Source: Saccharothrix deserti
Lineage (GTDB): Bacteria > Actinomycetota > Actinomycetes > Mycobacteriales > Pseudonocardiaceae
NCBI RefSeq assembly: GCF_009769385.1
Contig: NZ_VKAB01000002.1
Coordinates: 1 to 64,000 of the forward strand
Length of the DNA stretch: 64,000 nt
Direction: 5' to 3'
Of the stretch, positions 762 through 22,559 are shown one piece after another (within the stretch, counting starts at the first letter, position 1; every line of letters starts with the position of its first letter). A program made the position numbers and the translations under genes. The notes under the pieces were generated by a model. The model was not told the DNA's origin. It did no database searches and was given only the letters and a program-made list of their open reading frames with translations.

Positions 762-2470
762 ATGACACGGGTCGGGTTGGAGTCATCGAGGGTGGAACTG
801 TTCGAGGCGATCCGGCGCGACGCCCGGCGCGAGGACGCTGGGGTGCGCGAGCTCGCCCGCCGCTATGGGGTGCACCGGCGCACGGTTCGCCAGGCGCTGG
901 CCTCGGCGGTCCCACCGCCGCGCAAGACGCCGGTGCGTGCTGCGCCGCGGCTGGATCCGGTGAAGCCGTTGATCGACGCCATGCTGCGCGAGGACCTGAG
1001 CGCGCCGCGCAAGCAGCGCCACACCGCCCGCCGGGTGCTGGCGCGGCTGGTCGACGAGCACGGCCACGCCGACATGAAGTACCCGACCGTGCGTGACTAC
1101 GTCGCCCGGCGTCGCGCCGAGATCGCCCTCGAGGCCGGTGCCCCGCTGGTTGAGGCGATGGTGCCGCAGTCCCACGAGCCCGGAGCGGAGGCGGAGGTCG
1201 ACTTCGCCGAGCTCTACGTCGATCTCGGGCCGGACGCGGTCCGCACGAAGGTCTTCCTGTTCACGCTGCGGTTGTCCTACTCCGGGCGGGCGGTGCACCG
1301 GGTGTTCGCCACCCAGGCTCAGGAAGCGTTCCTTGAGGGCCATGTCCACGCTTTCGCGCGGCTCGGTGGGGTGCCGTGGGACCGCATCCGCTACGACAAT
1401 CTCAAGGCCGCGGTCTCCCGAGTCCTATTCGGCCGCGACCGTGAGGAATCGACCCGGTGGGTGGCGTTCCGCTCCCATTACGGTTCGACGCCTTCTACTG
1501 CCGTCCCGGCATCGAAGGCGCCCACGAGAAAGGCGGGGTCGAGGGCGAGGGCGGCCGGTTCCGCCGCACCCACCTCGTCCCCGTCCCACGCGTCGCGTCG
1601 CTCGCGGAGCTCAACGAGCACCTCGCCGCGTTCGACGACGCCGACGACGCCCGTCGGATCGCCAACCGCGCCCGAACCGTGGGCGACGACTTCGCCACCG
1701 ACGCCACCATGCTGCGCCCCCTACCGAACGAGGCGTTCGAGCCCGGCCTGATGCTGAACCCGCGGGTCGACCAGCACGCCCGGGTCACCATCCGCCAGTG
1801 CCGCTACTCGGTCCCGGCGCAACTGATCGGGCGACGGGTGCGGGTCCTCCTGCGCGCGGCCGAGGTGATCGTGCTCGACGGCCGCCGTGAGGTCGCCCGC
1901 CACCCACGCGCGGTCACCAAGGGCGCGGTCGTCCTCGAACTCGACCACTACCTCGAGGTCCTGGCCCGCAAGCCCGGAGCCCTGCCGGGAGCGACCGCGC
2001 TCAAGCAGGCCAGGGCGTCGGGCGCGTTCGCGGTCGAACACGAGGCGTTCTGGGCCGCGGCCCGCGCCGCGCACGGTGACGCCGGTGGCACCCGCGCCCT
2101 GGTCGAGGTCCTGTTGCTGCACCGCCACCTCCAGCGCTCACATGTGCTCGCCGCGCTGCGCGCCGCCGCCAGCGTCGGGGCGACCCACCCCGACGTCGTC
2201 GCGGTCGAAGCCCGCCGCATTGCCGAGCACCACGGCGACGACAGCGAGACCACCCACGACGGCGCCACTCCCACCGCACCGGCCGGGCGGGTGGTGAGCC
2301 TGACCGAGCGCCGGCTGGCCGATCCGACCGCCACCATCGCTGCGCTGCCTGCCGACACCCGGCCGCTTCCGAGTGTCGAGGCCTATGACGAACTGCTCGC
2401 GCGCCGCCGCGACCCACACCCGCCGAACGTCCCGGACGATCCGGCAACTACCAAGAACGAGGTGTCATGA
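762..2470 (+). pseudogene. istA: IstA transposase of an IS21-family element, frameshifted
   Basis: Start ATG 762. The N-terminus has a helix-turn-helix (VRELARRYGVHRRTVRQAL, residues about 28-46), followed by an integrase-core DDE domain: D146 in EVDFAELY, D212 in RIRYDNLKA and the Glu of HEKGGVEGEGG. The reading frame breaks near 1487, where HYG-FDAFYCRPG would need one more T in a GGTTCG stretch; the first frame instead runs on to a stop at 1751. The second frame carries the final catalytic Glu and the C-terminal region, ending at 2470. The shift separates two catalytic Asp residues from the Glu, so no active transposase is expected unless frameshifting occurs. The stop overlaps the istB start as ATGA. 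Confidence 0.85.
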
Positions 2471-5400
2471 CCAGCCCGACCCGCCCACCGGCCCGACCAC
2501 GCCGGCGCCGCCAGGGATTGTCCGACCAGGCCGCCGCGACCGCGATCGACCAGGCATGCCGAGCGCTGCGGCTGCCGACGGTCCGGACCTCGGTCGAGGA
2601 CATGGTCACCGCGGCTGAGCACGAGCAGATGTCCTACCGCGGCTTCCTCGCCGAGATCCTGCTCGGCGAGTGCGACGACCGCGACCGTCGCCGCTCCGCC
2701 CGCCGGGTCAAGGCCGCCGGGTTCCCACGCGAGAAGTGGCTCGAGGACTTCGACTTCGGCGCGAATCCGAACATCAACCCGGCCACGATCAACACCCTCG
2801 CCACCGGCGCCTGGATCACCGCGGGTGAGCCGCTCTGCCTGATCGGCGACTCCGGGACCGGCAAGTCGCACCTGCTCATCGGCCTGGGCACCGCCGCCGC
2901 CCAGCAAGGGTTCCGGGTCCGCTACGCGCTGGCCACGAAGCTGGTCAACGAACTCGTCGAGGCCGCCGACGAACGCCAACTCGCCAAGACCATCGCCCGC
3001 TACGGCCGGGTTGACCTGCTCTGCATCGACGAGCTCGGCTGTGCGCCACGAGGCGCTGAGAACCTTGCGGAAGGAGGAGTCCGCCGCCGGTCATCGCAGT
3101 GACCGGTTGAAGCTGGAGGCAGGCCGAGCCCCGGGTCGGGGGCAAGGCCGGGAGCAGCCTCGACAACGTAGGGATGGGCCGACACCACCAGACGGTCCAT
3201 GCCCGCAAGCGAAGACGGAATGGGTGTAAGGAAACTGAACCAGTGGTTGACGCCCCGTGAGTCATCAGCAGCCTGCCGAACCTGGTGGATGGGCTGCTTC
3301 GCGGTGCTGGAGAGCGCCCTAGCCAATGGACTCTCCTCTCGCATCGCCTGCTGTGGATGGGCGATGCGGGGTCCGGGCCAAGACTGCGATGTGCGGCCCG
3401 TGACGATGCCGCCGGGGTATAGCTGGGCACCGAAGTCGTCACAAAGGTTCTCAGTGAACGTGGGAAGCGATCTGGCATCGCCCTTCCCGTCCGGCAGCCG
3501 GCCGGGCGGCGGGCAGGTGCGACGCCGGCCGATGGTGCCAGGTCGTGGCGGAGTCGCCGTAGTACTCGGAGGGCGGGAAAGCCGTCCACATGGGGAAGGG
3601 CGACAGCGTGAGAGCAGCAGCGCTGCGATCGGGAAGGGACGTTGTTGAACAACGACGCGCCGCAGGCGTGGCCGGGGAGTTTCGCGGCCGGGCAGCGGGT
3701 ACTTGAGCACCAGCGCAAGCTGCACCGATGGGCAAGGACCGAACCGGGTCGCCGGTTCGGCGACGTGTTCAACTTGATCTGCGACCGGGCCACCTTGCTG
3801 GTGGCCTGGGAGCGGGTGTCAGGCAACCGGGGCGCCAGGACAGCAGGCGTGGACGCGGTCACCCGCTACCACGTCGAGACACGCCAGGGAGTGATCCCGT
3901 TCCTGGAGGAGCTCCGCTCCTCGCTCAAGGACGGGACGTTCACCGCGCTGCCGGTCAAGCAGGCGGTCATCCCGAAGAAGAACGGAAAGGTCCGTTACCT
4001 CGGGATTCCCACACTGCGTGACCGGGTCGCGCAGATGGCACTCAAGCTGGTCCTGGAACCGATTTTCGAGGTCGACTTTTACCCGTCCAGTTACGGGTAT
4101 CGGCCCGGGCGTCGGGCTCAGGACGCCATCGCCGAGATCCACCACTTCACCTGCAAGCCGTCGACCTACGAGTGGGTCATCGAGGGCGACATCAAGGCTT
4201 GCTTCGACAACGTCGACCACCACGTCCTGATGGAACTGGTGGCCGAACGGATCAAGGACCGCAAGGTCCTGAAGCTGGTCAGCGCGTTCCTGCGCGCTGG
4301 AGTTGTCGAGCTGCACGGTGGGTTCGCGGAGACCCTGACGGGCACTCCGCAAGGAGGCGTCGCATCACCGCTACTGGCCAACATCTATCTGTCCGTGCTG
4401 GACCGGCACTTCGCACGGATCTGGGACGAGCAGATGAACCCGGCGTGGCGTCGGCGATACCGACGTCGCATGGGACGGCCGAACTTCCGGCTCGTGCGTT
4501 ACGCCGATGACTTCGTCGTGCTCGTGCACGGCACCAAGTCCGAGGCCGAAGCGCTGAAGATGGAGATCGGCCAGGTGCTGGCCAGCAAGCTGAAGATGAC
4601 CCTCTCGGTCGAGAAGACCCACATCAACGACGGTTTCGTCTTCCTCGGCTTCCACATCCAGGCGAAGACCCGAGGCGACGGACGCCGCGTCGTGCTCACC
4701 ATCCCCGCCAAGCAAGCCTTGGCGTCGGTGATGCACAAGATCAAGAAGTTGACGGCACGAGGCACCACCTCCCTGTCGTTGGCAGAGATCCTGCGGACGG
4801 TCAACCCGGTCCTTCGCGGCTGGGCGGCCTACTTCCGCTACGGCGCGTCGAAGAGGACCTTCTCCTACGTGGGTTGGTACGCGTGGTGGAGGGTTCTCCT
4901 CTGGATTCGCCGGAAACGGCCTCACCTGACTTGGAAGCAGTTGCGGCGGCTCTACTACGGGGCCGACCGCATCGGCGCAGAGGGTTTGGTCCTCTACAAC
5001 CCGGCGAAGATGCGGGTCGAGCGCTACCGCTTCCGCGGAGCGCAGATCAGCACGCCCTACAACGTCGACGAGGTCAACCCGGACGGAGCGCGTTTCCGCC
5101 GGACCAACCACGACGACATGGGCTTCGTCGGCCAGGTCAGCGAATACCTCGCCTAACCCATCGCCTCACGTGGAGAGCCGGATGCTCGGCCAACGGGCAC
5201 GTCCGGTTCGGCGGGCGGGGGCGGGGAAACCGACGCTGGAAACAGCGCACGGCGTCCCGTCCCCGACCCAACACATGGAACTTGACCGCCGCGGCGCCGA
5301 ACTCCTCTTCCAGGTGCTGACCGAGCGCGAGGAGACCAACTCCATCGCCATCGCCTCCAACCAGCCCTTCTCTGGCTGGACCCGCACCTTCACCGACCCG

Positions 5401-8078: not shown

Positions 8079-10172
8079 GTGGAGTCTCGTGTTGGTCGCG
8101 GTGGGTTGAGCGATCTGGCGCGTTCGCCGTTCGGGTTGCCGTTGGCGTTGCACGCCAAAGAGGTCCGTGCCGCGTGGGTCGGCAGGACCTCGACGGAGGA
8201 GCATCAGGATCCTCGGCAGTCGTTGCTGCGGCAGTTGGAGCGCTGCAAGGTCGTGCTGCCCGAGTCGTGGGTGATCGTGTGTCACTTCTACGACGTGGAG
8301 TCCGGTCGGATGGAGTTGGAGCGGCGTGGCCGGGGCACCGACTACGAGCGGTTCGACATCCCGATCGCCCGGGACGGCGGTATAGCCGACCTCCTGGTGG
8401 AGGCGGCGCGGCCGGCTCGGCGGTTCGACGTGGTGATCTGCGAGTCGATGTCGCGGATCGCGCGGAAGATGTTCGAGACGTTGTCGGTGGAGCGGGAGTT
8501 GGAGCGGGCCGAGGTGCCGGTGTTCGCCTCGAACGAACCGATCCTGCTCACCGGCGGGCGTGCGCAGCAGATCCTGCAACGGCGGATCAACCAGTCGGTG
8601 GCCGAGTACGAAGTGCTGAACATGCTGGAGCTGTCGTGGGGTGGGACCTGCACCCATATCCGGGAGGGCTACAACATCGGCAAGCCGCCCTACGGGTACC
8701 GGGCGAAGACGATGCGGCACCCAAACGCGGCCAAGGCGGAGAAGGGGGTCACGAAGACCCGACTGGAGCCGGACGGGGCACACGCGGAGACGGTGACGCT
8801 GATCGCGAAGTGGCGCTACCACGAGCAGCTCGGGTTCGACACCATCGCCGAACGACTCAACCAGGACCTCGACCGGTACCCGCCACCGATGCCACCCGGT
8901 GGGACTCGGGCGCGCGGGGCATGGTCGAAGTCGAGCGTGGCGGAGGTGTTGAAGAACCCGAAGTACACCGGTTACCAGGTCTACAACCGGCGTGCCCGTC
9001 GCAGCCGCGGAGCCCGCAACCGGCACAACCCGCCCGAGCTGTGGGTGTGGTCGACCGAACCCGCCCACGAGCCGCTGATTCCGAAGTGGATGTTCGACGA
9101 GCTGATCGCCACCCGCACCCAACGCCAGGGATCGCGGGACGGGACCGGCCTGAAGAAGGACCCGCGCGTGCGCCGCACCTACCTGCTGCGCCGCCGGGTG
9201 CTGTGCGACTGCGGACGCAGCATGATCGGCATGGTCCGCTCGGCCGGGATCATTTACTACCGCTGCCATCCAGCGGGCAACAACCGCGGGCGCCCCGACA
9301 AGCACGAGGGACACCCGCCCACGGTCTACGTACGCGAGGACCTCATCCTCGACCGACTCGACGCCTTCTTCACCGAACGGGTTTTCGGCCCCCGACGACG
9401 CGAACTGCTACTCGCCGACATCAACAACGGCGACGACACCCGGAGCCAGGAACTGGCCACCCAGCGGCAACGCCTGCAACGCAAGATCGCCGATGCCACC
9501 CGCAAGCAGGACAACCTCCTGCACCAGGCCGAAGACGCCGACCCGCGTGACCCGTTCGCCCAAGGGCTCCGACAGCGTTACAACGACCTGGAAAACGAAC
9601 GCCAAGCCCTGCTCGCGACGCTCCACGAACTCGACAACAGCCAGCCGGAGACCATCCATCCCACGACCGGCCAGGCCGACCTGCTGGACGCCCTGCCCCA
9701 CCTGGTAACCAACCTGCGTCGTGCGCCCACCGATCTACTCAACCGGCTGTTCGACCTGACCAAGCTGACGATCCAGATCCACTACGGAACCGATCAGGCC
9801 ACCATCACCGCCAGCCTGCCCGCCGACAACGGCTCGATCGCCGCTATAGGGGAAGCCGTCGCCGAGAAGCCGGAACCACATGCCCCGGAATGCAACGAAC
9901 CAGCAGGTCAGGAACTGTGTGCATCCTGTGAGTGCCCCCGGAGGGGCACGAACCGACAGTCGGGTTGTTGTTCCGACGGTTTCCGTAGCAACTCGACTAT
10001 CACATCGGACCTGATCGAAGCGGACTCTGCTCGCGAGCGGAGAAGCCTCGACGACGGCCTGCTCGACCGCCTGCTGGATCGGACCATCCATGCACTCGCG
10101 GGGAAGACGTGGACGCCTCGAACACCTTCGCGGCGTCCACGGGACCATCCCCGCACGGGCGGGGAAGACTAG
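8079..10172 (+). CDS. Large serine recombinase (site-specific integrase)
   Basis: 697 aa from GTG 8079. The resolvase domain has the catalytic Ser in VGRTSTEEHQDPRQSL (S38) and FDVVICESMSRIARK. A recombinase domain follows (GYNIGKPPYGYRAK, KWRYHEQLGFDTIAERLN, VLKNPKYTGYQVYNRR), then a zinc ribbon (CDCGRSMIGMV…YYRCHP) and a coiled-coil (ELATQRQRLQRKIADATRKQ) typical of large serine integrases. From about residue 618 the sequence is encoded by the right att-like repeat, and the last 30 residues by CRISPR-like repeats, so the natural protein may have ended differently before integration. It would catalyse directional integration or excision of its unit. Confidence 0.9.
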   Translation: MESRVGRGGLSDLARSPFGLPLALHAKEVRAAWVGRTSTEEHQDPRQSLLRQLERCKVVLPESWVIVCHFYDVESGRMELERRGRGTDYERFDIPIARDGGIADLLVEAARPARRFDVVICESMSRIARKMFETLSVERELERAEVPVFASNEPILLTGGRAQQILQRRINQSVAEYEVLNMLELSWGGTCTHIREGYNIGKPPYGYRAKTMRHPNAAKAEKGVTKTRLEPDGAHAETVTLIAKWRYHEQLGFDTIAERLNQDLDRYPPPMPPGGTRARGAWSKSSVAEVLKNPKYTGYQVYNRRARRSRGARNRHNPPELWVWSTEPAHEPLIPKWMFDELIATRTQRQGSRDGTGLKKDPRVRRTYLLRRRVLCDCGRSMIGMVRSAGIIYYRCHPAGNNRGRPDKHEGHPPTVYVREDLILDRLDAFFTERVFGPRRRELLLADINNGDDTRSQELATQRQRLQRKIADATRKQDNLLHQAEDADPRDPFAQGLRQRYNDLENERQALLATLHELDNSQPETIHPTTGQADLLDALPHLVTNLRRAPTDLLNRLFDLTKLTIQIHYGTDQATITASLPADNGSIAAIGEAVAEKPEPHAPECNEPAGQELCASCECPRRGTNRQSGCCSDGFRSNSTITSDLIEADSARERRSLDDGLLDRLLDRTIHALAGKTWTPRTPSRRPRDHPRTGGED
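9932..9954 (+). repeat. Right att-like 23-bp repeat, inside the recombinase ORF
   Basis: Shares both ten-base arms with 6884-6906. It also contains a perfect inverted repeat (GTGCCCC, CGGA, GGGGCAC). Translation through it gives ECPRRGTN, where normal recombinase sequence ends. Confidence 0.5.
10080..10169 (+). CRISPR. Two-repeat type I-E-like CRISPR relic
   Basis: Repeat 2 (10141-10169, 29 nt) begins GGGACCATCCCCGC and ends GCGGGGAAGAC, very close to actinobacterial type I-E repeats. Repeat 1 (10080-10108) matches it at 24/29 positions and is degenerate in its centre. The spacer (10109-10140) is 32 nt, giving the 61-bp period of type I-E arrays. A partial third copy (GGGCGGAGAAGAC) is at 10202-10214 at a shortened distance. 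No cas gene is in the window. The spacer is itself a near-perfect palindrome (GTGGACGCC…GGCGTCCAC). Confidence 0.75.
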
Positions 10173-10217
10173 AAGGTGGTGGGCTTGTTCTCGAAGGTCA
10201 TGGGCGGAGAAGACAGC

Positions 10218-11768
10218 CTATCGAGACCCCACCCAAGCTCGGATAGCGGCGACGATCGTGTCAACATCCCGGACCGACATCCTGGGCTTACCGCCGACCC
10301 GCTGCCGCGGAGGACTTGGCGCAGGAATGTTGAGCTTCCACAACGCCTGCCCCAGCCGCTTGGGATCCCAGCCGATGCGGCCGGCGAGGTCGGCGGTGGC
10401 CACGATGCCGGTCTCGTCCTGGCCGATGACCTCGGCCAGCAGCACCAGCACCTCGGGCAGGTACGCAACGGTGTCGACGTCGACGGGCTCGAAGTCGGCG
10501 GTGGCGGTGGCGGCGACCGGTGCGGTGAGCCGGTCCGTGTCTACGGGCACGGCCAGGGCGGTAACGGCATCACCGGTGGGCGGGCCGAGGGTGAGACGGT
10601 GTTCCGCATCGGCGTCGGCAGCAGTCCTGGCGGACGTGAGGTCCACCAGGGCGGTGCGGACGATCGCGTCCTCGGCCGGTAGGGCCACCAACTCCTCCGA
10701 TACGGCCAGCGGATGCCGCTCGCCGGTCAACGCCTGCACCGCCGTGGCGATCTCGGTGAGACTGGCCTTGACGTAGGTGGAGGTCACCCCGTACCTGTTC
10801 GACGTGGGCTCGGCGTGTCCGGCGAAGGCCCGCGCGACCGCATACCCGAAGTTGCGCTCCACCCAGGTCAATGTGGTGTGCCGCAACCAGTGGGTGCTGA
10901 TCATCTGGGTATGCACGCTGTCCACGTGTTTGCCCAGCCGGCTCCAGAGCATCGTGTAGCGCCGCCGGCCCATCGGCATGCCATTGTGGTAGCGCAACAC
11001 CTGGCTGTCCGGATCACAGGCGCCCCGCGCACGGGCGTGGTGTCGCAGGTGCGCCATCAGCGTCGGCGACACCGGCTGCCACCGCGAAGCGCCCCCTTTC
11101 TCCCGCAGCAGGATCAAACACTGCTTCGTGTCCAGGTCCCGCACCCGCAACGCCAGCGCACCACCACGCCGGCACGCGGTCTCGATGTGCAACCGCAACA
11201 GCAGCGCGTCCAACGCGGGATCGTTGCCCGTCGACGAGGCCACCTCGACGATCCGCGCGACCAGCGCGGCGTCCAGGCCGTGACGGCGCGAGTGCGGCCG
11301 TGGGGGCTTGGCCACCCGCGACATCACGTTCTGCCGACCGGTGATCACTTCCTCGTCCACCGCATACCGGTAGACGCACAACAACGCGTTGTAGGTGTGC
11401 TGCACCGCACTCCGACCGCCGTTGGCGGAACGGCGGACCACGACATCGGCCTTAACGTACTCGAACAACGACTGGACGTCGGGCACCGTGATCTCGTCCA
11501 ACCGGCGTTCACCCCAGACCGCGACGATCTTCTTCCAATAGGCGCGGTACGACTCCCTCGACGGCGCCGGAACGGCCTTGGTCACCACCGGCACGATCTC
11601 GGCGAAGGTCGGCACGTGCCGCCCCGTCGACACCGAATCGTCGTCCGGGACGACCTGGCCGGCCGCCGACGCCTCCACGTCGATGAGGTCCTGCGGCCGC
11701 AGTTTCATGTGCTTCAGTAGTTGGATCGCCATCGCGACATCGGAGGAACGGGGACCACCGTCAACCAC
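10218..11768 (-). CDS. Tyrosine recombinase / phage-type integrase
   Basis: 516 aa from GTG 11768, preceded by GGGGGAAGG; this start overlaps the stop of the upstream gene by 8 bp. The SAM-like core-binding domain (SRESYRAYWKKIVAVWGERRLDEITVPDV) is followed by the catalytic domain with Arg in ETACRRGGALALRVRDLD, HWLRHTTLTWV (HxxR), GHAEPTSNRYG and a candidate nucleophilic Tyr in TSTYVKASL. The C-terminal 130 residues (GQDETGIVATADLAGRIGWDPKRLGQALWKLNI) form an extra winged-helix-like region. Its 3' end abuts the CRISPR relic. It may be the integrase of an old integrated element whose other genes are gone. Confidence 0.88.
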   Translation of the reverse strand: MVDGGPRSSDVAMAIQLLKHMKLRPQDLIDVEASAAGQVVPDDDSVSTGRHVPTFAEIVPVVTKAVPAPSRESYRAYWKKIVAVWGERRLDEITVPDVQSLFEYVKADVVVRRSANGGRSAVQHTYNALLCVYRYAVDEEVITGRQNVMSRVAKPPRPHSRRHGLDAALVARIVEVASSTGNDPALDALLLRLHIETACRRGGALALRVRDLDTKQCLILLREKGGASRWQPVSPTLMAHLRHHARARGACDPDSQVLRYHNGMPMGRRRYTMLWSRLGKHVDSVHTQMISTHWLRHTTLTWVERNFGYAVARAFAGHAEPTSNRYGVTSTYVKASLTEIATAVQALTGERHPLAVSEELVALPAEDAIVRTALVDLTSARTAADADAEHRLTLGPPTGDAVTALAVPVDTDRLTAPVAATATADFEPVDVDTVAYLPEVLVLLAEVIGQDETGIVATADLAGRIGWDPKRLGQALWKLNIPAPSPPRQRVGGKPRMSVRDVDTIVAAIRAWVGSR

Positions 11769-12802: not shown

Positions 12803-14632
12803 ATGTGCGGAATCGTCGGTTACGTCGGCCCAAGGGACGCGGTCCCCGTGCTGCTGGAGGGCCTGCACCGGCTCGAATACCGGGGTTACGACTCGGCGGG
12901 CATCGCGGTCGAGGACGCGGGCGGCGGCGGGGTCCGGGTCGCCAAGACCGCCGGACGCGTCGCCGACCTGCGGCGGGCCGTGCCCGACGACATGGCGGGC
13001 GCGACCGGTATCGCGCACACCCGGTGGGCCACCCACGGCGAGCCCAGCGACCGCAACGCGCACCCGCACGTGGACGCCGCCGGGCGCATCGCGATCGTGC
13101 ACAACGGCGTCTTCGAGAACTCCGACCGGCTCCGCGCCCAACTCGTCGCGGACGGTGTCGCGCTCGCCTCCGACACCGACAGCGAAGTCCTCGCGCACCT
13201 CGTCGCCCGCAGCACGGGCGAGACCCTCGAAGACGCCGTGCGCGAGGCGTTGGCGCAGGTCGAGGGCACCTACGGGGTGATCGTGATGGACGCCGAACGG
13301 CCTGGTGAGCTGGTCGCGGCCCGCCGGGGCAGCCCGGTCGTGCTCGGTGTCGGCGAGCAGGAGATGCTGGTCGCCTCCGACGTCGCCGCGCTGGTCCGCT
13401 ACACCCAGCAGGTGATCTACCTGGACGACGACGAGATCGCCACGGTCACCGCCGACGGCTACCGCACGTCCACCATGGGCGCCCGCGCCACCAGCACCAC
13501 CCGCTCCCCCACGTCGATCGACGCCGCGAGCGCCGAGTACGAGCTGGGCGACCACCCGGACTTCATGTACAAGGAGATGCGCGAGCAGCCGGACGCCGTC
13601 GACCGGTGCCTGCGCGGCCGGCTGGACCACCGGTTCTCCTCCGCCCGACTGGACGGCGTCGGCCTCACCCCGCAGGACTACCAGCGCATCCGCCGGGTCA
13701 AGCTCCTCGGCTGCGGTTCGGCGTACTACGCCGGGCAGCTGGGCGCGCAGCTGATCGAGGAGCTGGCCCGCATCCCCGCCGACGCCGAGCCCGCGTCCGA
13801 GTTCCGCTACCGCAACCCGGTCGTGGACCCCGACACGCTGTACGTCGTGCTCAGCCAGTCGGGTGAAACGCTGGACACGCTCGCCGCCGTGCAGGAGCTC
13901 AAGCGCAAGGGCGGTCACGTCATCGGCGTGGTCAACGCGGTCGGCAGCACGATCGCCCGCGAGTGCGGCCACGGGCTCTTCCTGCACGCCGGTCCCGAGG
14001 TGTCGGTGGCGGCGACCAAGTCGTTCACCACGATGGGCGTCGCGCTGGCGATGCTCGCGCTGGACCTGGGCCGGGTGCGTGACCTGTCGATCACCGAGGG
14101 TCGTCGGCTGGTCGGCGGCCTGTCGCAGCTGCCGGACCAGATCGCGCGGATCCTCGCCGCCGAGGACGAGATCGCGGAGATCGCCCGGAAGTACGCGGAC
14201 GCGCGGCACATGTTCTTCGTCGGCCGGGTGCGCGCCTGGCCGGCGGCGCGGGAGGGCGCGCAGAAGCTCAAGGAGATCTCGTACGTGCACGCCGAGGCCT
14301 ACCAGGCGTCCGAGCTGAAGCACGGGCCGTTGGCGCTGATCAACCCGGAGATGCCGACCGTGGTGCTGGTGCCGGACGACGAGCTGCTCACCAAGAACAC
14401 CGGCACCATCGAGGAGATCAAGGCGCGCGGCGGGCCGGTCATCGCGGTCACCGACGCCGAGCTGCCCGCCGGTCTGGCCACGGACGTCATCCGGGTGCCC
14501 AAGGCGCACGAGGCCCTGTCCCCGATCACGTTGTCGGTGCCGTTGCAGCTGTTCGCCTACCACCTCGCCCACGCCCTGGGCCGGGACGTCGACCGGCCGC
14601 GCAACCTGGCGAAGAGCGTGACCGTCGAGTAG
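12803..14632 (+). CDS. glmS: Glutamine--fructose-6-phosphate aminotransferase (isomerizing)
   Basis: 609 aa, the usual GlmS length, from ATG 12803 after GAGGAGACAGCG. The N-terminal glutaminase domain starts with the nucleophilic Cys2 (MCGIVGYVGPRDAVPVLLEGLHRLEYRGYDSAG) and includes TRWATHGEPSDRNAHPH. Two SIS sugar-isomerase domains follow (KLLGCGSAYYAGQLGAQLIEELA, VLSQSGETLDTLAA, VAATKSFTT, GRVRAWPAAREGAQKLKEISYVHAEAY, ELKHGPLALI). It ends in the canonical KSVTVE. It makes glucosamine-6-phosphate for peptidoglycan and other amino sugars in the cytoplasm. No glmS riboswitch was recognised upstream. Confidence 0.97.
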   Translation: MCGIVGYVGPRDAVPVLLEGLHRLEYRGYDSAGIAVEDAGGGGVRVAKTAGRVADLRRAVPDDMAGATGIAHTRWATHGEPSDRNAHPHVDAAGRIAIVHNGVFENSDRLRAQLVADGVALASDTDSEVLAHLVARSTGETLEDAVREALAQVEGTYGVIVMDAERPGELVAARRGSPVVLGVGEQEMLVASDVAALVRYTQQVIYLDDDEIATVTADGYRTSTMGARATSTTRSPTSIDAASAEYELGDHPDFMYKEMREQPDAVDRCLRGRLDHRFSSARLDGVGLTPQDYQRIRRVKLLGCGSAYYAGQLGAQLIEELARIPADAEPASEFRYRNPVVDPDTLYVVLSQSGETLDTLAAVQELKRKGGHVIGVVNAVGSTIARECGHGLFLHAGPEVSVAATKSFTTMGVALAMLALDLGRVRDLSITEGRRLVGGLSQLPDQIARILAAEDEIAEIARKYADARHMFFVGRVRAWPAAREGAQKLKEISYVHAEAYQASELKHGPLALINPEMPTVVLVPDDELLTKNTGTIEEIKARGGPVIAVTDAELPAGLATDVIRVPKAHEALSPITLSVPLQLFAYHLAHALGRDVDRPRNLAKSVTVE

Positions 14633-19215: not shown

Positions 19216-21039
19216 TCACCACTGGATGTCGCTCAACCCCTCCAACGGCGCGCGCTCCTCCAACGACTCCGGCAGCACCAGCGTGTCGGCCGCCTTCAAG
19301 GCCGCCGGGAACGTGAAGCCGCACCGCTCCTCGACCTCGCCCAACGCCACCTGGAACACCCGGAACTCGTCCAGTTCCAGCGACTCCAACTGGTCCAGGT
19401 TCTGCGTCAGCACGAACGCCCGCGCCTTCAGCTCCCCGGCCGACGCGAACGCGAGCACCTTCCAGTACTCGCGCGGCAACGGCACGCCGCGGAACACCCG
19501 GTCGTCGGACCGGAACACCGGGCCGCCGTAGACGCTGACCTTCAGGTCGTCCACGTCCGCGTCCTCCAGCACCGCGTCCTCCAGCCGACCCCACAGCCCG
19601 CGCCGCGCGCTCTGGTTGAAGTCGTCCATCTGGGGCGTGATGTTGGTGAAGAAGAACGAGTCCTTGTTGGCCCGCTCCGCGACCGCCTTCGGCCCCCACA
19701 GCAGGTCCGCGCGCCGGGCCAGGTGCCCGCGGTCCAGCCGGTTGTCCCGGTACAGCTCGTCGCCGATCTGGAACTCCCCCGGGATGCGCGGGTCGAGCAG
19801 GAACGGGATGCCGCTGCGGTTGATCTTCTTCAGCCCGCCGCCGTCGATGTTCCACGCCACCCAGAACGCGAACCGCCGCGACTTGCTCTGCGCCAGCGAG
19901 AAGTGCGTGTAGTCGATCACCGTCGACCCGTTCAGCTCGACCGCGTCGGCCCGCGCCTCCTGACCAAGCTCCGGCACGCCCACCGGCACACCGAGGAAGT
20001 CCCCGTCGAACCCGGCCAGCGCCACCTCGAGCTTCTTCGGCCGATCGAGCGTGATGTCCAGCTTCTCGAACACCGACGCCGGCAGGCACGCCAGCGCGTG
20101 CTCGTCCGGGCTGTCACCGGCCTCGCCCGCGAAGTGCAGGCCCGCCATCGTCTTGCCGGTCTTGCCGTTGGACGCCTTGAACATCCACGCCGCGCCGGAG
20201 TCGCCGCCCATGCTGATCTCGCCGTCGGCGGCGGGGTGCGACGGGTCCGGTCCGATCTCGAAGCAGCCGATCTGCCGCTGCCCCACACCGGGGCCGTAGT
20301 CGATCTTGGCGAGGGTGTCCACGCGCCGGACCACGCCGTGCGTCACGGCGGTCGTCCGGCCGCTCTTCACGACCTTGTCGCCCAGCTCCGGCTCGCCCAG
20401 CTTGTCCACCGCGACGCCCAGGTCCAGGATCTCCGGCTCGAACCCGCGGCCCTCGACGGTGGCGATGGCGCAGTCGCCCGCCGCGCCCAGGTGCGACCGG
20501 ACGAGCCGGCCGAGCCGGTTGCGGTCGGTGCGGTTGTCGTCGTGCACGCCGGGCTGGACGACGTCCTCACCCAGCGCGCCCTGCGGCCCGTGCAGGACGT
20601 GCCAGTTGCTCAGGGTGTACGGGGTGCCGTCGACCCGGTCGTACACGACGCAGCCGATCGTGCCCGCGGACACCCGCACGTGGCCCACGCTCACCCCCGG
20701 CACCACCGGGTCGATCCGCGTCTTGCGCACGCTGCTGACCGGCTCCTCCACCACGTGGAAGTCGATCCGGTAGTCGCGTTGCAGCACGTCGGTGGGCACC
20801 GGGACGCCGTCCACCTCGATCGTCTCGGGCAGCAGCGAGGTGCCGAGCGCGCCCAGCGCCTCGGGCGCGGCCTTCTGCCGGACGGTGAACTGGACGGCGA
20901 TCTCGTTCGTCGGCTTGCCGTCGACGACCTTGTAGCCGATCCCGATCGAGGACACGTTCGGGTCCCGCAGGTAGTCGGCGCCCTTCGTGCGCACGAACCG
21001 CCGGAGCGAAGCCTGCAAATCGTTCGTCTTCTTGGCCAT
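19216..21039 (-). CDS. Trypsin-like protease fused to DNA/RNA non-specific endonuclease
   Basis: 607 aa from ATG 21039, no signal peptide. Residues 1-60 form a small N-terminal module (YLRDPNVSSIGIGYKVVDGKPTNEIAVQFTV) seen before some bacterial trypsin-like domains. Residues about 100-330 are a chymotrypsin-fold protease with His147 (LSNWHVLHG), Asp189 (GDCAIATV) and Ser281 (MGGDSGAAW). Residues about 350-600 are a NUC1/endonuclease-G-type nuclease with DRGH (436-439, LDRGHLARRADL), FFFTNITPQ for the metal site, and VSVYGGPVF. All key residues of both activities are present. A cytoplasmic protease joined to an indiscriminate nuclease suggests a suicidal or defence role; that is inference. Confidence 0.85.
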   Translation of the reverse strand: MAKKTNDLQASLRRFVRTKGADYLRDPNVSSIGIGYKVVDGKPTNEIAVQFTVRQKAAPEALGALGTSLLPETIEVDGVPVPTDVLQRDYRIDFHVVEEPVSSVRKTRIDPVVPGVSVGHVRVSAGTIGCVVYDRVDGTPYTLSNWHVLHGPQGALGEDVVQPGVHDDNRTDRNRLGRLVRSHLGAAGDCAIATVEGRGFEPEILDLGVAVDKLGEPELGDKVVKSGRTTAVTHGVVRRVDTLAKIDYGPGVGQRQIGCFEIGPDPSHPAADGEISMGGDSGAAWMFKASNGKTGKTMAGLHFAGEAGDSPDEHALACLPASVFEKLDITLDRPKKLEVALAGFDGDFLGVPVGVPELGQEARADAVELNGSTVIDYTHFSLAQSKSRRFAFWVAWNIDGGGLKKINRSGIPFLLDPRIPGEFQIGDELYRDNRLDRGHLARRADLLWGPKAVAERANKDSFFFTNITPQMDDFNQSARRGLWGRLEDAVLEDADVDDLKVSVYGGPVFRSDDRVFRGVPLPREYWKVLAFASAGELKARAFVLTQNLDQLESLELDEFRVFQVALGEVEERCGFTFPAALKAADTLVLPESLEERAPLEGLSDIQW

Positions 21040-21171
21040 GAGCGCAAACCCCCTGGTGTGTGCGCGCTGGTGGCCTTGCTGTCGGCCTCGCCCGATCCAG
21101 TGTTAACCCAGACCCGTTGCGTTCACCCTTTCGGGCTAATGTCGGCCACCGAATGCAGTGTCCACCCCCGA

Positions 21172-21305: not shown

Positions 21306-22559
21306 GTGAAGATCAGACACGTGGCGGTGGCGAGCGCGCTGTTATCCGGGCTGGTCGCCGCGCCCGCGCACGCCGCCCCGGTCGGCGCGGTGCTCTACAG
21401 CGGGCACCCGCAGGCCGTGGCGGACAGCTACATCGTGGTGCTGAAGCGGCACGAGGACCTGGCCGCCGCCCGGTCCGCCGCAACCGGCGTCACGTTCACC
21501 TACCGGTCGGCGTTGGCCGGGTTCGCGGTGCGGGCGAGCGCGAAGGAGGCCAGGCGGCTCGCCGCCGATCCGCGCGTCGCCTACGTCGCGCAGGACGTGC
21601 GGGTGCGGTTGGCGCCCCACGATCTGACTGCGCAGGACGTCACCGCGCGAGACGTCACCGCGCGAGACGTCACCGCGCAGGACGTCACCGCGCAGGCCGT
21701 GGTCGTGCAGCCGAACCCGCCGTCGTGGGGCCTGGACCGGATCGACCAGCGCTCCCTGCCGCTGGACACCAAGTACTTCCACCCGAACACCGCCTCCACC
21801 GTGCGGGCGTACATCTTCGGCACCGGCATCCGGTACTCCCACCAGGAGTTCAACGGCGCGGCCGTGCCCGGCCTGGACACCGTCGGCGGCGTCAACCCGC
21901 CCGGCAACGACTGCAACGGCCACGGCACGCACATGGCGGGCACGGTCGGCGGGCAGACCACCGGTGTGGCGAAGGACGTGACCCTGGTGTCCGTGCGGGT
22001 GCTCAACTACCAGGGCTCCGGCACGTACGCGCAGATCATCGCGGGTATCGACTGGGCGACCAGCGACGCGGCGGCCAGCGGCAAGAAGGCGGTCGCGCTG
22101 ATGACCCCCGGCGGCGGGCTGCACCAGGCGTTCAACGACGCCATCACCGCGTCGATCAACGCGAACGTGCACTACTCGGTCGTGTCGGGCGGCTCCAACT
22201 CCAACGCGTGCAACTACTCCCCCGGCAGCACGCCGCTCGCCACCACCGTCGGCGCGACGGACGTCAACGACGCGAAGGCGAGCTTCTCCAACTACGGGCC
22301 GTGCATCGACGTGTGGGCGCCGGGCGTGAACATCACGTCGGCGTGGGGCACGTCCGACAACGCGTACTCGACCATCAGCGGCTCCACGGCGTCCGCGCAC
22401 GCGGCGGGCGTGGCGGCGTTGTGGCGGCACCGGTTCCCCGGCGACTCGGCGGTGGCCGTGGCCGAGGCGTTGCGGGCCAACGCCACACCGGGCGTGATCA
22501 CCAATCCGGGCGCGGGATCGTCGAACCTGCTGCTGTTCATGGGCATGATCCCGGTCTGA
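21306..22559 (+). CDS. Secreted subtilase-like protein with a degenerate active site (pseudoprotease)
   Basis: 417 aa from GTG 21306 after GGAGGAGCT. Signal peptide (VKIRHVAVASALLSGLVAAPAHA), then an I9-type propeptide (DSYIVVLKRHEDL…FTYRSALAGFAVRAS), a five-fold TAQDV/TARDV repeat and an S8 fold (WGLDRIDQRSLPLD). The catalytic Asp of the usual IDTGI motif is Gly172 (IFGTGI). His209 is kept (GHGTHMAGT). The oxyanion Asn of AAGN is Gly (VSGGSN). The GTSMASPH serine motif reads SGSTASAH, one residue short. It therefore probably does not cleave peptides and may bind or inhibit instead. The frame is otherwise intact. Confidence 0.85.
   Translation: MKIRHVAVASALLSGLVAAPAHAAPVGAVLYSGHPQAVADSYIVVLKRHEDLAAARSAATGVTFTYRSALAGFAVRASAKEARRLAADPRVAYVAQDVRVRLAPHDLTAQDVTARDVTARDVTAQDVTAQAVVVQPNPPSWGLDRIDQRSLPLDTKYFHPNTASTVRAYIFGTGIRYSHQEFNGAAVPGLDTVGGVNPPGNDCNGHGTHMAGTVGGQTTGVAKDVTLVSVRVLNYQGSGTYAQIIAGIDWATSDAAASGKKAVALMTPGGGLHQAFNDAITASINANVHYSVVSGGSNSNACNYSPGSTPLATTVGATDVNDAKASFSNYGPCIDVWAPGVNITSAWGTSDNAYSTISGSTASAHAAGVAALWRHRFPGDSAVAVAEALRANATPGVITNPGAGSSNLLLFMGMIPV
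21627..21701 (+). repeat. 15-bp tandem repeat coding for TA(Q/R)DV units
   Basis: About five in-frame copies of a 15-bp unit (pattern ACCGCGC(A/G)(A/G)GACGTC) encode TAQDVTARDVTARDVTAQDV between the propeptide and the S8-like domain, forming a variable-length linker. Confidence 0.8.

Follow-up and report, generated by a model that had tools for sequence, protein, structure and literature searches.

The locus and its product

The window analysed here is a stretch of 64,000 nucleotides from Saccharothrix deserti. On its minus strand, positions 19216..21039 hold a gene of 607 codons, starting with ATG, in which a NAL1-type serine protease is fused to a NUC1 nuclease. The ORF list, gene calling and full-length relatives mark it as a genuine gene; its GC3 is 0.977 and its coding score of 305 is the third highest among the genes called in the window. 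Hydropathy and the reading frame agree with the original prediction of a single 607-residue protein without a signal peptide: the best 19-residue Kyte-Doolittle mean is 0.09 in the first 40 residues and 1.25 over the whole chain, and no transmembrane segment is found by this measure. Among 83 relatives, values above 1.6 occur in the first 45 residues of none and somewhere in the chain of eight. The sequence predicts that one polypeptide unites, inside the cell, an enzyme that cuts proteins and one that cuts DNA or RNA. The fusion is the sole PF01223 match in its genome, and its protease half is matched three more times elsewhere, clearly in one case (E 1.2e-17) and weakly in the other two.

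Directly 5′ of the gene, a region conserved in Saccharothrix (21040..21170, minus strand) is a possible promoter or regulator site. It is kept in all nine aligned upstream regions from this genus, even where the upstream neighbour differs, and the blocks GGGTGA, TAAC and CGACAGCA are identical in all nine. An S8 subtilase gene with an I9 propeptide and a hydrophobic N-terminus follows at 21306-22559; it is divergent from the fusion and shares the intergenic region with it in the window and at five Saccharothrix loci. Farther away, the window carries a Mu/IS21-type transposase fragment and IstB, then a group II intron reverse transcriptase with a maturase domain (1457-5156), and an element encoding two recombinases, one of the large serine and one of the tyrosine type (8106-11732), upstream of a glmS-like gene (12803-14632, named by eye). 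This integrated element lies about 7.5 kb from the fusion, and its insertion looks strain-specific because a 91% relative (L039) shares no cluster beyond the glmS-like gene. A PADLOC search with 47 window proteins gave matches to 58 families; among the 25 listed, many are models of reverse transcriptases, as expected from the group II intron ORF.

A NAL1-type protease

For the protease half, residues 1-336 with the N-terminal module included (20032..21039, minus strand), neither Pfam nor NCBIfam nor PADLOC gives a match; it matches PHROG 20754 ('protease') over residues 10-302 (E 5.2e-32). An AlphaFold2 model of the fusion, built from 57 aligned relatives, has a mean pLDDT of 82.3 and a pTM of 0.60, at which the packing of the domains is unreliable. 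Its best structural match is rice NAL1 (NARROW LEAF 1; Foldseek E 3.6e-17). With VIA-align, residues 1-336 of the model superimpose on residues 86-456 of NAL1 (PDB 8pmi/7y77) with Z scores of 25.9/25.7, over 309 residues at an rmsd of 4.0 and 18% identity; the aligned plant chains have no nuclease. Bacterial chymotrypsin-fold proteases form the next structural group and cover only about residues 110-334. Since NAL1 spans the whole of 1-336, the N-terminal DPNVSSIGIGYK stretch belongs to the NAL1 unit. The module there (residues 1-106; 20722-21039, minus strand), for which the original prediction considered ligand sensing or restraint of the enzyme, is therefore, on the model, the N-terminal portion of the protease fold and no separate sensor; it may hold the enzyme inactive.

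What kind of protease is this? The catalytic residues His147 (20599..20601), Asp189 (20473..20475) and Ser281 (20197..20199, in a GGDSG motif), all on the minus strand, have exactly the numbering first given for them, as does the DRGH motif of the nuclease. The term 'trypsin-like' describes the fold. An isoleucine stands six residues before Ser281, and Arg/Lys specificity is therefore unlikely. NAL1 structures have been deposited in 'open' and 'close' forms, according to the titles of the PDB entries.

Three proteins (L173, L174 and L175) are NAL1-type proteases of about 500-640 aa with no nuclease; each has a long C-terminal extension, and by eye these extensions are alike. A viral origin was considered and rejected, with a single weak, protease-only match (28% identity) among viral contigs. 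Phage records gave six matches on the nuclease side. Among the BFVD matches listed, two viral proteins, A0A0N9MU75 (E 7e-19) and A0A7S9XDX3 (E 8e-18), strongly match the protease side of the model, and viruses may also carry NAL1-type proteases.

The nuclease, the linker and the tail

Residues 343-582 (19294..20013, minus strand; about 337-592 in wider limits) form an Endonuclease_NS (NUC1/EndoG) domain recognised by Pfam, fold and profile. The Pfam match covers residues 365-582 (E 3.6e-43), the PDB profile matches are to nuclease 2o3b, Serratia nuclease and EXOG/EndoG, and the modelled fold aligns with Serratia nuclease at Z 16.8, with pLDDT below 50 at the DRGH loop. This motif occupies residues 436-439 (19723..19734, minus strand), and Asn475 (19615..19617, minus strand) is, by analogy, presumably the metal ligand. 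By eye, no gating insertion was noticed in the nuclease. The domain content first described, a protease and a NUC1 nuclease with both sites intact, is confirmed.

Conservation was assessed over 84 full-length rows, comprising 80 loci, three plasmid copies and the window protein. H147, D189, S281, D436, R437, G438, H439, N466, N475 and E487 are invariant in 84/84, and the invariance of the catalytic residues exceeds chance. Mean identity to the window protein is 0.59 for the N-terminal module, 0.70 for the protease, 0.67 for the nuclease and 0.53 for the tail, and drops to 0.24 in the linker (residues 332-342; 20014..20046, minus strand), the least conserved stretch. The span 329-344 measures 13-29 residues in the 84 rows. 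With so variable a linker there is no conserved candidate cleavage site. In five Saccharothrix comparisons, NG86 dN/dS lies between 0.20 and 0.38 in the protease, 0.25 and 0.46 in the nuclease, and 0.30 and 0.53 in the N-terminal module, which indicates purifying selection on both enzymes.

The C-terminal tail (residues 583-607; 19219..19293, minus strand) ends in DIQW, and W607 is present in 83 of the 84 rows. Its last 7-8 residues are modelled with a pLDDT of 90 in the whole protein. A role of this tryptophan tail as a protease-docking or autoinhibitory peptide was rejected, because the nuclease modelled alone still places the last eight residues (mean pLDDT 92); protease-less relatives also keep DIKW or DIRW.

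Distribution and genomic context

The full-length fusion is found in 17 of 200 genomes of the family, its own included, and in 8 of 11 in the genus. Across the phylum, among 296 genomes, it is full-length in its own genome only, and 20 others match a part. Searches confirmed 288 relatives in genome contigs, of which the best 80, ranked by likeness to the actinobacterial query, were analysed; 79 of these 80 matches extend to residue 607. These best 80 of 288 are mostly actinobacterial, then from acidobacteria and Bacteroidota, and include one MAG placed in Thermodesulfobacteriota and two in Nitrososphaerota; the Nitrosocosmicus copies, on short MAG contigs, may be contamination. The closest named relative among them is Saccharothrix sp. 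ALI-22-I (91% identity, full length). Five plasmid records cover at least 80% of the protein, from Streptomyces canus (66% identity), Tsukamurella (62%) and Rhizobium (three, 50%). On the Streptomyces canus plasmid, the copy is flanked on one side by a patatin-like/IS5 pair and on the other by a block containing a baseplate J protein. Neighbours are kept within Saccharothrix, Actinokineospora and Umezawaea and are unlike between genera. The distribution fits horizontal spread followed by stable residence.

The 80 loci were sorted under 29 labels taken from record titles, seven of them acidobacterial MAGs. No gene family recurs at a fixed position beyond a few genera. The most widespread families within 10 kb are common ones with changing offsets: LuxR-type response regulators under 9 of the 29 labels, short-chain-dehydrogenase-like proteins under 7 and S8 subtilases under 6 (names partly assigned by eye). 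The subtilases, candidate partners of the fusion, number 12 members, five of which represent one Saccharothrix context. Same-strand neighbours less than 100 bases away are found upstream at 6 of the 80 loci and downstream at 11, so that the fusion is mostly a lone gene. The occasional close neighbours, judged by eye, are hydrolases or oxidases; by the same means, a matrixin-type protease was seen near four loci (Arthrobacter, Pseudarthrobacter, Rhodococcus and Nocardia), an S41-type protease near four Streptomyces loci and a heme-peroxidase-like protein near three acidobacterial MAG loci.

Are defence genes nevertheless over-represented nearby? Random subsets of near proteins (offsets 1-2; 147 of 207 dereplicated) and far proteins (offsets 5-8; 148 of 336), limited to 80 to 1500 aa, matched 162 versus 208 Pfam families and 39 versus 37 PADLOC families, and among the first 25 families listed per tally no defence enrichment is apparent. 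The fusion protein itself has no PADLOC match at E 1. The neighbours at the 80 loci thus come close to contradicting the role in biological conflict that was first proposed, since no defence or mobile neighbour recurs; yet plasmid copies exist. The lineage's own context gives a conflict role no support. What remains of that proposal is a published prediction for trypsin-NucA systems and the presence of some relatives with other proteases in such operons.

One nuclease lineage, several proteases

When relatives are aligned by their nucleases, the regions N-terminal to them fall into three clusters of S1 proteases with no BLAST link between them (more than 100 residues, 1e-4). The NAL1-type cluster comprises 85 rows, one of them doubtful. 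Another 13 carry a Trypsin_2 type with kinship to V8/Spl proteases: nine rows belong to the same family as the window, and the others come from one further actinobacterium, Paenibacillus, Nostoc and Sinorhizobium fredii. The second Trypsin_2 type is longer by an N-terminal stretch and has five, from Rhizobium phaseoli, Bradyrhizobium, Pseudomonas aeruginosa, Paraburkholderia and one actinobacterium. The protease precedes the nuclease in all three types in the rows examined. Within its own clade, the NAL1 protease is conserved to the same degree as the nuclease, so that exchange of proteases seems a better explanation than fast drift for the lack of likeness between types.

A nuclease tree of 84 rows (unrooted, with no outside NUC1 rows) bears on this history. 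Four labels, the three protease types and 'alone', need 8 changes on it, where the minimum possible is 3. L038 was entered as NAL1-type by N-terminal clustering, though no GDSG was seen, and L163, L164 and L167 were counted as 'alone' on inspection by eye, as the upstream ORF extension looks spurious. The NAL1 clade (support 100/99) holds 43 NAL1-labelled rows and 12 nucleases without a protease, 12 of 55 in all. The NAL1 label changes four times on the tree, three changes being forced by starred branches, and one of these is the base of the clade; losses of the protease would thus number two as a forced minimum and three on the best tree, with regain as an alternative to repeated loss. Ten protease-less nucleases of one genus (g8) are nested in the clade and joined with Umezawaea at 99/88. 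The L031 nuclease is still preceded by a remnant of the NAL1 N-terminal module (score 61; none of 500 shuffles as high, the best 45), which is good evidence for loss of the protease from a fusion, a natural protease deletion. The nuclease has thus been kept without a protease in cis and seems to be the lasting payload, the protease being usual but dispensable. Has another protease taken its place? In seven 19.5-kb contexts of the g8 nucleases, clusters c23-c25 aside, none was recognised by eye beside them, and the recurring neighbours recognised are housekeeping genes, e.g., pyruvate-kinase-like.

Relatives of the third type are found in an operon with further trypsins in Bradyrhizobium and, in Paraburkholderia, in one that also encodes a trypsin and an AAA_16/NPHP3_N ATPase. 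In Rhizobium phaseoli (L178), genes for a MoxR ATPase, a SAV_2336-type protein and further trypsin-like and patatin-like proteins adjoin, and the neighbourhood looks like a ternary conflict locus. Another protein, L159 (899 aa), begins with a region that by eye resembles an alpha/beta-hydrolase and continues with a Trypsin_2-type protease and the same nuclease.

A possible role in cell death

What might such an enzyme do? The reading that we prefer, tentatively and with our confidence still short of even, is that of a cytoplasmic executioner nuclease, restrained and released via its NAL1-type protease and used in cell death, with infection, damage or development as the trigger. The NAL1 module, tied by a variable linker to a non-specific nuclease of the EndoG/Serratia type, would most likely form an oligomer that holds the attached nuclease in check. 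A signal, be it infection, damage or programmed hyphal death, would alter this assembly; the protease would then cleave its own chain or other cellular proteins, and nucleic acids would be destroyed by the nuclease, so that the cell is killed or cleared. We infer activity, oligomer, restraint, trigger and cell-death role alike. In its favour are the invariance of both active sites, the purifying selection on both enzymes, the combination of one nuclease lineage with three protease types, the operons of third-type relatives with a System 3 layout, and the 'open' and 'close' forms of NAL1. Protease-gated suicide nucleases of Hachiman and AVAST, in which a trypsin is paired with an MBL nuclease (Tuck et al. 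2025; PMC12799240), would favour this reading by analogy. Against it stand the missing consistent association with defence or mobile genes, the unconserved linker, the 12 of 55 nucleases without a protease and the lack of a noticed gating insertion. Proteolytic self-activation, suggested at the outset, is weakened and finds no support in the sequence, as the linker is variable and the protease appears to have been lost while the nuclease stayed. It is rather unlikely that the fusion is a complete cell-death switch in one polypeptide, in which an allosteric NAL1-type oligomer would serve as sensor, restraint and activator with no sensor gene, inhibitor gene or operon, and which would as such have spread by transfer across bacterial phyla.

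Alternatively, though this is rather less probable than the executioner reading, the fusion could be a developmental or post-mortem recycling enzyme of ageing or dying hyphae, whose protease digests generally and whose nuclease is not gated. Neighbours that are kept within genera and differ between them would suit such a role, as would the divergent S8 subtilase beside the gene and the persistence of protease-less descendants of the nuclease. However, the fusion also occurs in Arthrobacter, Tsukamurella, Hymenobacter and Rhizobium, none of which is known to be filamentous, and the S8 neighbour is present under only 6 of the 29 labels. In Streptomyces natalensis, programmed cell death is marked by loss of DNA and by a nuclease band near 25 kDa (PMC4530454), in line with recycling.

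The original prediction pointed to an effector of abortive infection in the strict sense, directed against phages or plasmids, which infection would trigger and which would activate itself by cleavage. Such a role has been predicted for trypsin-NucA systems (PMC7159879), the relatives with other proteases sit in conflict-like loci, and a distribution across phyla and plasmids with some 50-70% identity would be expected of it. We nevertheless consider it unlikely, given that no neighbour family keeps a fixed place beyond a few genera at the 80 loci, that about as many PADLOC families are matched far away as nearby (37 versus 39), and that positions are conserved within genera, the linker is variable and the protease appears to have been lost. 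Least probable is delivery as a weapon, in which the fusion would be exported by a contractile injection system or another secretion system and both enzymes would act inside the target cell. A baseplate J block follows the plasmid copy in Streptomyces canus, a contractile system of Streptomyces davawensis has a nuclease effector of the DNA/RNA non-specific type (PMC11126660) and phage-sheath genes (PF04984) occur in 16/17 fusion-bearing genomes versus 71/183 others in the family, but the other two annotated plasmid loci read show no tail genes, and the sheath association may be one of genus, because congeners without the fusion also carry sheath genes (G021, G059 and G143 in its own genus; G045, G136 and G179 in genus g45).

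Comparison with known systems

The nuclease half has the fold and the DRGH motif of EndoG, EXOG and Serratia nuclease, and both DRGH and the Asn of EndoG/NUC1 nucleases are present in 84/84 rows. Those enzymes are mitochondrial or secreted and, unlike the fusion, carry no protease in cis. One protein of Fusobacterium nucleatum has been listed as Tryp-Endonuclease_NS, with no functional analysis in the relevant passage (PMC2605481); by Pfam name its domain order equals that of the fusion, but its protease matched Pfam Trypsin, which the window protease does not. The Hachiman, AVAST and canu pairs have in common with the fusion a protease and a DNase in one system and the idea of a protease-controlled suicide DNase (PMC12799240, excerpt). 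According to the same excerpt, however, trypsin activates a pro-nuclease of the metallo-beta-lactamase (MBL) fold that is encoded by a separate gene and carries gating insertions, and the protease is fused to a defence enzyme (HamA, Avs or LmuA). Here, a NUC1 nuclease with no insertion noticed is fused in cis, and the protein has no such defence partner and no PADLOC match.

The closest counterpart is 'System 3' of Kaur et al. (2020; PMC7159879), in which a trypsin and NucA, fused or in one operon, were predicted to form a conflict system whose nuclease is deployed by proteolysis. Its optional features are additional trypsin paralogues, partners of the EAD1 or STAND kind and TM segments. A 2021 sequel also names NucA-trypsin systems in the part available (PMC8195603). 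The Bradyrhizobium and Paraburkholderia operons match the System 3 layout, and the window nuclease shares a tree, unrooted and with no outside NUC1 rows, with members of System-3-like operons. The window protein likewise joins an Endonuclease_NS/NucA domain to a trypsin-fold peptidase. It differs in that its protease is NAL1-type, without a Pfam Trypsin_2 match, that it has no TM segment by hydropathy, and that its lineage is mostly a lone gene, with no extra trypsin or STAND NTPase recurring at a fixed place in the 80 loci. Its full-length relatives are mainly actinobacterial and acidobacterial in a list ranked by likeness to an actinobacterial query. In the open-licence literature we found no report of a NAL1-type protease joined to a nuclease, which is weak evidence of absence as NAL1 and nuclease were never queried jointly. 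We class the fusion as a NucA-trypsin variant that carries a NAL1-type protease; the wider pairing has already been published as a prediction. In many bacteria, an EndoG-like nuclease is fused to a protease of the type encoded by a plant gene for growth and yield. Together with the pairing of one nuclease lineage with three serine protease types, this turns the control of NUC1 nucleases by proteases into a general principle open to test, for which the natural protease-less descendants offer a ready control.
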